From positions 11,021 to 48,196 of the forward strand of contig MKRX01000001.1 in assembly GCA_001898035.1 (NCBI GenBank): a stretch of 37,176 nucleotides of DNA, in the 5' to 3' direction. The notes under the pieces are model-generated. The model worked only from the letters and a program-made list of their open reading frames with translations. It was not told the DNA's origin and did not search any database. The translations under genes and the position numbers were made by a program. Below, piece after piece: positions 12,108 through 14,571 of this stretch (position 1 is the stretch's first letter; each line of letters begins with the position of its first letter). This stretch comes from Armatimonadetes bacterium 55-13. Its GTDB lineage: Bacteria > Armatimonadota > Fimbriimonadia > Fimbriimonadales > Fimbriimonadaceae.

Positions 12108-13277
12108 CTATTTACCATCCTGAAGGAATTTCAAAGCGCGCGCCAGCACCAGATCCTTCCCGCTCTTGTCGTACTCCGGCTTGACCTCGATATTCGGCGA
12201 AACCCCAACCTTCTCCAACTTTTCCCCGTCGGCCGTCACTTCCACGATCGGGATCTCTAGAAACGCCCATTCGTTCAACCGTGAAGGGGTAGTCCCCAAG
12301 ACATGCCCTGCCGTCGTTGTGCCAATCAGAGTGGCCCTGCCCGACTTCTTCAGCATGTAACTGGAAATCTCCTTGGCGCTTCGTGACCCCTCGTTGATCA
12401 AAACCACCAACGGCTTCTTCGTCCCGTAGCCAAACGGAACCTGCTGCGTAAATCCCGTCAAACCATAGCTGACATTCACGTCCGGCATAAAGAACGGCTC
12501 AAAGAAGTTCTCGGGCCGACCGCCAAAGCCGTCCCGCAAATCCAAAATGAACGCGTCGGTATTGCGAAGCTGCCCCATCACCGCCGACTTAAGGGCATTT
12601 CGAAAACTGTCGTTCGCCTGCGTCCAAAGGTGAAAATAACCGATCTTCTTTCCACCCTGCTCAATCACCCGTGTGCTCCTTCGGGAAGCTTGGACGAACA
12701 TATCCAGCGCCTTTTCTGAAGTCACCGTCACCTGCTTGGAGGAAGTCGCCCCATCGCGCTCAATTTCCAAAGTGACCTTCTTGTTCACCTTGTCCTTAAG
12801 CGAACTCACCGGCGAGAACGGCTTGCCATCCACCGTCTTGATCACGTCGCCCTTTCGAATATCCGCGTCCGCCGCTTCTGAACCCTCCAGAACCATCGTA
12901 ACGACAAATCCCTTCGCCGTCTGCTTGAACCACAAGCCAATCTCCGGCATCGCCGCCGCCTTGTCTGGGTTGGCCAGGTTATCCATCATGTAATAGGCTT
13001 GATCTTCGTCGGTCAACAGCGCGAAGTGGGAATCTCCAAATTCGGCGATCATGTCGTTAACCGTCTTGTTGAACTCTCCCTTGGTCTTCGCCGCCGAAGC
13101 CAAAGGTCCATATTTGGCGAAGAGCTTGTCCATCTCGTCTTTGCGGCTTGTCCGAGCATAGAAGCGTTGGCTGATCGAGGTTTCGATTCGAGACCATGCT
13201 TCCTTAAAGTTTAGGTCGGCAGACGGGGCGCCTTGGAACGACACCAGAGCCCAGGCGAGCAAGGGAAGACAGTTCAT
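12108..13277 (-). CDS. Exported S41-family (CTP/Tsp-like) peptidase homologue
   Basis: 389 residues with a short signal peptide (MNCLPLLAWALVSFQGAPSA). Residues 20-100 are a helical N-terminal domain, 110-190 a PDZ domain (IRKGDVIKTVDGKPFSPVSS) and 210-385 the S41 protease fold (FILDLRDGFGGRPENFFEPF, then LVVLINEGSRSAKEISSYML). S41 enzymes use a Ser-Lys dyad. The candidate Ser is Ser300 in GSRSAKEI. At the spacing of the E. coli Tsp dyad (25 residues) this protein has His325 in GTTTAGHVLG where Tsp has Lys. It may therefore be inactive as a CTP, or use a different arrangement as in other S41 subgroups. It ends 2 bases from the methyltransferase stop, converging on it. Confidence 0.85.
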   Translation of the reverse strand: MNCLPLLAWALVSFQGAPSADLNFKEAWSRIETSISQRFYARTSRKDEMDKLFAKYGPLASAAKTKGEFNKTVNDMIAEFGDSHFALLTDEDQAYYMMDNLANPDKAAAMPEIGLWFKQTAKGFVVTMVLEGSEAADADIRKGDVIKTVDGKPFSPVSSLKDKVNKKVTLEIERDGATSSKQVTVTSEKALDMFVQASRRSTRVIEQGGKKIGYFHLWTQANDSFRNALKSAVMGQLRNTDAFILDLRDGFGGRPENFFEPFFMPDVNVSYGLTGFTQQVPFGYGTKKPLVVLINEGSRSAKEISSYMLKKSGRATLIGTTTAGHVLGTTPSRLNEWAFLEIPIVEVTADGEKLEKVGVSPNIEVKPEYDKSGKDLVLARALKFLQDGK

Positions 13278-13340
13278 GTGACCTTTCTACCCTGATGACC
13301 TGCCCCCCAAGTTCCCGATTAAGGTATCATCCCTAAATCT

Positions 13341-13373
13341 CGTGGGAGGCTCTTTGAGCCGCCTGCACCACAG
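13341..13373 (+). promoter_or_regulatory. Ribosomal protein L1 binding site in rplA leader
   Basis: The 33 bases before the rplA start fold as GTGG (13342-13345) paired with CCAC, an asymmetric internal loop, and an inner stem GGCTC/GAGCC closed by TTT. The stretch GTGGGAGGC resembles the L1 site in 23S rRNA (helix 76 region), and L1 is known to repress its own operon through such a mimic. A TATCAT hexamer at 13325-13330 could be the -10, giving a transcript that begins at this structure. Autoregulation by L1 is inferred. Confidence 0.6.
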
Positions 13374-14102
13374 GTGAACAATTTGAGAAAGAACATCCGC
13401 AAGAACCCGCAGTCGCCGCGGTACGTCGAGATTGCCAAGCAAGTCGACCAAGATGCCACCCTGGACATCAACAGCGCGATCGCCCTCGTAAAGAAGACCG
13501 CCACCGCCAAGTTCGTTGAGAGCGTAGACCTCGCGATCCGACTCGGCATCGATCCTCGAAAGAGTGATCAGAACGTTCGCGGCCTCACCAACCTCCCCCA
13601 CGGAACCGGCAAGATCAAGAAGGTCGCCGTCCTTGCGAAGGGAGACCTCGCCGCCGAAGCCGAAAAGGCTGGCGCCGACATCGTCGGTGCGGATGATCTC
13701 ATCGCCAAGATTCAAGCCGGTGAGCGAGACTTCGACGTAATCCTCGCCACGGAAGAGATGGCCCCCCAAATCGGTAAGATCGGTCGAGCCCTCGGTCCCA
13801 AGACGCCCAACAAGCGAAACGGAACCGTCACCAACAACATCGCCACCGCCGTTAAGGAAATCAAAGCCGCGACCCGTGTCGAGTACCGAACCGACAAAGC
13901 CGGCGTCGTTCACATGTCCATCGGAAAGGTCAACTTCACCGATGAGCAGCTTCTGGAGAACTTCAAAGCTGGCTTCGGCGCCGTCCTGAAGGCCAAGCCC
14001 AGCAGCGCAAAGGGCAAGTACGTGGAGTCGCTCACCGTCAGCGCCACCATGGGCCCCGGCATCTCCCTCGATATCAACCTCGCCTCCAAGTTCGCCAGCT
14101 AA
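13374..14102 (+). CDS. rplA: 50S ribosomal protein L1
   Basis: 242 residues with a GTG start at 13374. L1 is the protein of the mobile stalk of the large subunit and aids exit of deacylated tRNA. Family motifs are present: SVDLAIRLGIDPRKSDQNVR, LPHGTGKIKKVAVLAKGD, the GRALGPKTPNKRNGTV signature, and VEYRTDKAGVVHMSIGKVNF near the C-terminus. Length is as expected for L1. It stands alone, with an S41 protease on the other strand upstream and no rplK or rplJ beside it, which is unusual because rplK-rplA are normally adjacent. An L1-binding leader before it and a strong terminator after it make it a self-contained single-gene unit. Confidence 0.97.
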   Translation: MNNLRKNIRKNPQSPRYVEIAKQVDQDATLDINSAIALVKKTATAKFVESVDLAIRLGIDPRKSDQNVRGLTNLPHGTGKIKKVAVLAKGDLAAEAEKAGADIVGADDLIAKIQAGERDFDVILATEEMAPQIGKIGRALGPKTPNKRNGTVTNNIATAVKEIKAATRVEYRTDKAGVVHMSIGKVNFTDEQLLENFKAGFGAVLKAKPSSAKGKYVESLTVSATMGPGISLDINLASKFAS

Positions 14103-14113
14103 GTCGAACGGAG

Positions 14114-14162
14114 GATAAAGAAAGAGGGCGAAAGCAACTAGCTTTCGCCCTCTTTCTTTATC
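14114..14162 (+). terminator. Intrinsic terminator after rplA (bidirectional)
   Basis: Arms 14114-14135 and 14141-14162 form a perfect 22-base stem with loop AACTA; the core is GAGGGCGAAAGC. The outer part of the stem is A-rich on the left and T-rich on the right, so it supplies a U-tract in both directions and separates rplA from the convergent cupin gene. Confidence 0.85.
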
Positions 14163-14208: not shown

Positions 14209-14571
14209 TTAAATCCGATCCGGATTCGCGACCGTCAACACGCTCGCCGCATCGCCTGTATTCAGTGTGGAAGCAGGCTCAAAGAGCATCACTTCCACTT
14301 CATCTTCGGCAAATGGCTTATGCTCCACACCCCGAGGCACAATTACAAACTCACCCGCCTCGATCCATTCCGCCCGATCCCGAAAATCCATCCGAAACCG
14401 TCCCCGAACCACATAGAACATCTCGTCTTCCGCCTCATGGGAGTGCCAAACAAAGTCCCCCACAAACTTCACGAGCTTCACATGCTGCCCATTCAACTCC
14501 CCCACAATCTTGGGAGTCCAATGCTCGGCAAACGAGTCCAGCTTCGACCGTAAATTGACCTTATCGCCCAT
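14209..14571 (-). CDS. Single-domain cupin protein
   Basis: 120 residues folding as one cupin beta-barrel. Metal-binding residues are seen in motif 1, WHSHEAEDEMFYVVRG (two His and a Glu) and in motif 2, PRGVEHKPFAEDEVEVMLFE (one His). This is the small mannose-6-phosphate-isomerase-like cupin type; many of these bind a divalent metal and a small ligand. It starts three bases after the VOC gene stop and is surely co-transcribed with it. The pair may act on the same small molecule, but no substrate can be named. Expression probably depends on the operator-like promoter at 14979-15021. Confidence 0.88.
   Translation of the reverse strand: MGDKVNLRSKLDSFAEHWTPKIVGELNGQHVKLVKFVGDFVWHSHEAEDEMFYVVRGRFRMDFRDRAEWIEAGEFVIVPRGVEHKPFAEDEVEVMLFEPASTLNTGDAASVLTVANPDRI

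Follow-up and report, generated by a model that had tools for sequence, protein, structure and literature searches.

A probable uL1 operator in the leader of the stand-alone rplA gene of Fimbriimonadaceae, and a candidate leader before the separated rplK

Expression of rplK-rplA is repressed by the ribosomal protein uL1, which acts on sites in the mRNA that look like its binding site on 23S rRNA (PMC10931766, section 3.1). According to that section, the sites precede rplK in Proteobacteria, and rplA in Actinobacteria and Cyanobacteria; in Firmicutes, Thermus thermophilus and Thermotoga maritima they are found before both genes. Section 3.1 of this source does not name Armatimonadota.

We analyzed a 37,176-nt stretch of DNA from Armatimonadetes bacterium 55-13 (contig MKRX01000001.1, positions 11,021 to 48,196), hereafter the window, which carries rplA. 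The rplA product matches Pfam Ribosomal_L1 (E 4.7e-59), and as this domain has one match in the whole 4.5-Mb genome, the gene is single-copy. The encoded protein is a typical bacterial L1 and contains the TMGPG stretch, which has a role in RNA contact. Among the best matches of this rplA, those with names come from Armatimonadetes, many of them labeled Fimbriimonadaceae or Fimbriimonas, and we read the window's own family (f1) as Fimbriimonadaceae. The ORF tool starts the frame at GTG 13374, which falls inside the ribosome-binding sequence AGGTGA. Because the GTG frame hits a TGA in a congener (G001), while TTG-AGA-AAG is common to both, TTG 13383 is probably the true start. The features of the locus are collected in Table 1.

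Table 1 Features of the rplA locus and of related sites elsewhere in the same genome
Feature	Position	Strand	Basis
S41/PDZ peptidase-like gene, divergent neighbor	12108..13277	-	ORF list, Pfam
TATCAT, possible promoter -10-like box of the rplA unit	13325..13330	+	sequence reading; no -35 seen
L1-site-like element	13342..13371	+	model R1 match, covariation; inner helix also in predicted fold
Outer helix GUGG/CCAC of the element	13342-13345/13368-13371	+	sequence comparison; absent from predicted fold
Inner helix GGCUC/GAGCC of the element	13348-13352/13356-13360	+	covariation and predicted fold
Right loop GCCUGCA of the element	13361-13367	+	sequence
AGGTGA, ribosome-binding sequence	13372..13377	+	sequence; abuts the 3′ end of the L1-like site
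rplA ORF, tool start GTG	13374-14102	+	ORF list
rplA, ribosomal protein uL1, probable TTG start	13383..14102	+	Pfam; start by comparison
22-pair hairpin, probable bidirectional terminator	14114..14162	.	fold -39 kcal/mol, z -9.9
Cupin-domain gene, convergent neighbor	14209..14571	-	ORF list, Pfam
rplK leader hairpin, GCUUCC loop	L121:3660-3696 (contig C3), outside the window		sequence, covariation
Own 23S L1 stalk region	L234:3660-3760 (contig C5, 23S gene)		

As the original prediction held, rplA stands alone, without a co-oriented partner gene upstream. The bidirectional terminator that it proposed is borne out as probable: between the convergent rplA and cupin genes lies a hairpin of 22 perfect pairs, T-rich on both strands, which would serve both genes. 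A terminator pattern scan did not list this hairpin, and a promoter scan called nothing upstream of rplA, with no -35 box seen in the window; we therefore treat promoter and terminator as readings of the sequence. TATCAT could be the -10 box of rplA. In 29 of the 33 family rplA leaders a -10-like box begins 14-35 nt upstream of the hairpin (3.0 expected from mononucleotide shuffles); among 15 leaders from intact operons, 2 have such a box (1.05 expected). The box pattern was picked only after the leaders had been inspected. Boxes like GGTATNNT or GGTACAAT recur shortly upstream of the leader hairpins of both rplA and rplK in the family.

The L1-site-like element before rplA

The L1 stalk of the genome's own 23S rRNA reads GUGGGAGCUUCGGCGCCAAUGGAACACCAC, and the rplA leader reads GUGGGAGGCUCUUUGAGCCGCCUGCACCAC. 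By this likeness, the leader contains an outer and an inner helix separated by an asymmetric internal loop, with GA on one side and GCCUGCA opposite. The element lies directly before the uL1 cistron, at the ribosome-binding site, as is characteristic of a uL1 operator; a purine-rich stretch directly 3′ of CCAC is seen in most of the relatives whose rplA leaders we compared. A second hallmark, a 23S-like stem-loop with an asymmetric loop, is recognized by sequence comparison; folding of the window leader by itself does not predict the outer helix.

We found the motif in 32 of 33 family rplA leaders, compared with a mean of 0.06 in shuffles, and the L1-like site in all 33 family genomes that have rplA. 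A covariance model (R1) was built on 50 rplA leaders (set A1: 55 rplA places, minus 4 without a match and G051, dropped as doubtful). R1 gives one match in the window, at 13340-13380 (E 6.3e-8). In the whole genome the rplA leader is its sole match at E ≤ 10 (E 7.7e-6; 150 of 1802 first-look candidates were scored). None of the 4227 covariance models of Rfam reaches its gathering score anywhere in the window, and none matches at E ≤ 5 within 13200-13500 around the rplA leader.

Compensatory changes were read from 32 leaders (31 loci and the window; set A5). The two helices pair in 95.7% of cells, compared with 37-61% when partners are slid, and double-changed cells number 43 against 9.9 in shuffles. 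In the inner helix, both sides have changed in 4 of 5 pairs. In the outer helix this holds for 2 of 4 pairs, contributed by 3 of the 32 sequences: UCGG/CCGA in L007, and CUGG/CCAG in L008 and L015. The selection of A5 fixed mainly GGNAG and ACC, and its 3′ ends were picked by best pairing, which biases it towards the outer helix. The rows of L003, L006, L010 and L011 were corrected by eye, and the set omits L021, which lies at a contig edge, and L022, whose stem is very long. The earlier set A1 backs the inner helix; the outer helix is nearly invariant there and says little, since the pattern by which these leaders were chosen fixed most of GUGG/CCAC. The two sets share genomes (e.g. G025:C1 and L012) and are thus not independent. 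A lack of compensatory changes in the stems was what the original prediction had named as evidence against itself; both helices carry them, and the predicted 23S-like L1 site with its asymmetric loop stands on this and on the likeness in sequence.

We also checked the rRNA side of the likeness. H78 of the own genome is a mini-hairpin, GCUUCGGC, and the same short form occurs in 23 of the 24 Armatimonadota genomes read (27 were queried, 4 without a match); the exception is G145, where H78 is long. A compensatory change in an H77 pair (GUAGG/CUACC) is seen in G030. A short H78 is reported for Patescibacteria (PMC12641178), in the main text of which neither Armatimonadota nor Armatimonadetes occurs. 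Among the literature matches listed, we recognized no title reporting a short H78 in Armatimonadota. The short H78 brings the rRNA target near the mRNA copy in size, which may aid structural work.

We put at roughly 85%, slightly lowered by the folding predictions below, the probability that the rplA leader is an autogenous uL1 operator, which copies the L1-binding H77/H78 junction of 23S rRNA.

Predicted folding and a model of control

The outer helix rests on sequence comparison, because the best predicted fold of the window leader replaces GUGG/CCAC by GUGGG/CCUGC. The competing form is predicted at -15.2 kcal/mol and the 23S-like form at -10.0 kcal/mol, with an outer-helix probability of 0.001. 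At least three of the four outer pairs survive in the best fold of only 12 of the 33 family leaders, and of 3 among 18 others. The folding energy of the rplA leader is unremarkable (z -0.9, -1.8, -0.9). In many rplA leaders GUGGG can pair with either CCYGC or CCAC, the former giving a competing hairpin that excludes the L1-like form, and 13342-13366 of the window is predicted to take the competing hairpin. On these predictions, the competing hairpins could be a switch.

Two readings can be given. In one, binding of L1 pays the cost of the 23S-like form, perhaps in a two-state switch; in the other, the outer helix is unimportant in these species. The compensatory changes favor the former. The fold also bears on a different role, in which the element would be a general 5′ stabilizer of the mRNA in its GUGGG/CCUGC form, without any L1 binding. 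The predicted stability of the competing fold, far higher in the window leader, and a presumed transcription start that would put the hairpin at the extreme 5′ end both suit such a role. A stabilizer does not explain why GGNAG and ACC are kept in 32 of 32 leaders of A5 (both partly fixed by selection) or why compensatory changes track GUGG/CCAC; moreover, in relatives the same element lies within an operon and not at a 5′ end. We consider the stabilizer unlikely.

As an operator, the leader may work as follows. When L1 is in excess over free 23S rRNA, it would bind the rplA leader and fix the GUGG/CCAC form, the 3′ strand of which touches the ribosome-binding sequence, so that ribosome entry would be blocked. 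Since the last base of the element touches that sequence, bound L1 should block initiation directly. New 23S rRNA would draw L1 off the leader. In the unbound leader, the GUGGG/CCUGC fold may free CCAC and the ribosome-binding sequence, giving a two-state switch in the window's species. L1 binding could instead act on transcription, by choosing between the element hairpin and a terminator; attenuation is known for another ribosomal leader, that of B. subtilis rplJL (PMC4538822). We see neither a U tract nor a terminator between the element and the start codon, and contact of the element with the ribosome-binding sequence argues for translation, which makes an attenuator highly improbable, the least credible of the readings weighed here.

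Separation of rplA from rplK

The original prediction asked for rplK elsewhere in the genome. We find it once, on a contig separate from that of rplA (C3:3742), with a PEP-CTERM protein gene and a 5′-nucleotidase-like gene as neighbors; the rplK/rplA adjacency of an L1-controlled operon is absent from the window's genome. We compared 61 genomes (the own genome and 60 relatives). All 33 f1 genomes with both genes have them apart, either on separate contigs or at least 14 kb from each other on the same contig (least in G017). Within the same order, 19 of the 22 genomes from families f2-f5 have the two genes side by side; G043 and G059 are split, and G052 is not judgeable at its contig edges. An even draw of 161 genomes from the phylum, with both gene places listed for 145, gave the same picture: the genes are separated in all 22 f1 genomes (10 on one contig and 12 on different contigs, the edges of which were not checked singly) and adjacent in 123 of 123 outside f1, with 472-1554 nt between domain starts. 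A single loss of linkage at the base of f1 would explain the split of this family, that of genus g37 probably being a separate event.

The covariance search of Armatimonadota leaders that the original prediction called for yielded 35 R1 matches at E < 0.01 in the 161 genomes, 25 of them in genomes outside the training set. Of these matches, 32 sit 94-213 nt upstream of the rplA domain start, one lies before rplK, and two (G138, G179) could not be placed. The 13 matches in f1 are all before rplA; 18 of the 22 outside f1 lie between rplK and rplA, and another, in G161, precedes an rplA whose rplK place is not listed. In 79 of the 161 genomes R1 has no match at E ≤ 1, with strict filters that lose some sites (e.g. 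in G016, which has one), and the weaker matches in this draw are probably mostly chance. The lone match before rplK is in G141 (L225), the only one of the 35 with an L1-like site at that gene.

Among the 19 f2-f5 genomes with adjacent genes, the site before rplA is clear in 14, doubtful in one (G051) and not recognizable in four. Relatives with rplK next to rplA and the leader lost, which were to count against the original prediction, therefore exist as a minority. The four genomes also lend something to the view that the element is a relic of an ancestral operon site which no longer works in the split family. A relic would hardly be kept, with compensatory changes, in 33 of 33 family genomes while adjacent genomes keep it in 14 clear cases and one doubtful case out of 19, and we regard this view as very unlikely, more so than the stabilizer.

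As the site lies in the rplK-rplA gap of many other Armatimonadota and the genes are apart throughout f1, the comparison indicates that the site is older than the one-gene unit, and that rplA parted from rplK taking an existing L1 site along. The idea that the operon split marks an ancestral rearrangement agrees with a split found throughout the family, but the history differs from the one first supposed: the leader did not arise with the split and is not its product.

The genus g37, in a sister family, shows several arrangements side by side. The gap element has no box upstream in G041, G053, G055 and G057; a TATAAT box precedes it in G056 and G058 (L171, L174), where rplK is still adjacent; and in G043 and G059 (L177, L179) the genes are apart, each also with a TATAAT box. 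These may be possible stages of fission, from a site in the gap, through a promoter box, to separation. A tree built from f2 and the g37 genomes, in which 6 of the 10 inner branches are open, does not order the steps.

The rplK leader and comparison with known operators

The original prediction also claimed autoregulation by L1 of rplA only. Control of rplA alone by L1 is likely from the comparisons, and we found no convincing L1 site before rplK; L1 binding itself is what we infer from the likeness to rRNA. Searching for the L1 motif before rplK in 59 relatives gave one literal match, in G018; this GTGG match lies 315 nt upstream of the rplK domain and was taken as chance. The best E-value of R1 across the 35 family rplK loci is 0.14, and two of its weak matches overlap rplK leaders on the opposite strand (L152, E 0.14; L133, E 4.8).

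In the own genome, the rplK leader has a GGGTACAAT box and about 60 nt before the ATG (L121 3718); the gene is followed by a terminator-like hairpin (L121 4162-4195). GCTTC(C/T) occurs within 220 nt of the rplK start in 33 of 35 f1 leaders. In comparison, we found it in 1 of 24 f2-f5 leaders, in 1 of 35 on the reverse strand and in 5 of 33 before rplA, and shuffles gave a mean of 5.75 and a maximum of 11. The flanks of this sequence pair as a hairpin in 67.4% of cells (35-50% when slid), in an alignment (A3) whose GCTTCY columns are invariant by selection. The covariation score is 0.405, compared with at most 0.275 for slid versions. Double changes number 32 against 19.5 in shuffles, and because slid versions reach 29, this covariation is weaker than that of the rplA element. 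An Rfam scan of the rplK leader gave no match.

A model of this leader (R2) has its best match directly before rplK in G210 and G211, family genomes outside its training set whose genera are also represented in that set. The model is only modestly specific: the own rplK leader scores E 0.05, and unrelated matches in other genomes are equally good. Five other R2 places (L276, L279, L283, L287 and L290) were judged by eye to have no common gene behind them and were set aside as chance. In the 24 f2-f5 loci R2 found nothing better than E 0.32; there rplK comes after what reads as the end of nusG, without a leader of its own. We rejected, as a general mechanism, pairing of the GCUUCC loop with its own ribosome-binding region, an idea from the fold of the own genome's leader; over 33 genomes the mean pairing energy was -4.7, compared with -4.4 for shuffled targets and -4.7 for shuffled loops.

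By its sequence, the rplK hairpin is a candidate new ribosomal leader, and uL11 as its ligand is a guess. In the main text of a leader survey (PMC7247131), a term search for rplK, uL11 and rplA returned nothing. Tentatively, and with well under even odds in our view, fission would have left two one-gene units with structured leaders, rplA with the old L1 operator and rplK with a new GCUUCC regulatory RNA, perhaps a uL11 operator. Of the present findings, the rplK leader most deserves further work.

The family can serve as a natural experiment on what keeps rplK and rplA together. An L1-like site stayed with rplA (33/33) and rplK has a conserved leader of its own (33/35), which makes it testable whether L1 and L11 can be kept in balance by a switch on each gene or require one that the genes share. 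Among the literature matches listed, no title concerns an rplK-rplA split in Armatimonadota, which is not proof of absence.

Autoregulation by L1 is well supported by the comparison, not by folding energy, and the one-gene setting is common to the whole family. The mechanism itself is known from sites before rplA in other phyla, and the gene arrangement is new. Like the uL1 operators described before rplA (PMC10931766, section 3.1), the element is an irregular, 23S-like stem-loop with an internal bulge in front of the L1 cistron. Those operators are described within an rplK-rplA operon, whereas here rplA forms a unit by itself and its leader consists mostly of the site. The operator of Proteobacteria shares the protein and the principle of 23S mimicry but exerts L1 control from in front of rplK, where no L1 site was found here. 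R1 does not match the gammaproteobacterial loci. Among 47 loci (L036-L082, mostly gammaproteobacteria), only L049 (E 1.7e-5) and L070 (E 5.7e-4) fall below E 0.1, with L043 at 0.37; R1 thus misses the rplK-leader sites described for Proteobacteria, and its two matches lie directly upstream of rplA, one in a genome from Sumerlaeota and one in Hydrogenibacillus. The 23S L1 junction (H76-H78) and the rplA leader have GUGGGAG, ACCAC and an asymmetric junction in common, and differ in the right-hand loop, which is 12 nt in 23S rRNA and about 7 nt in the rplA mRNA.
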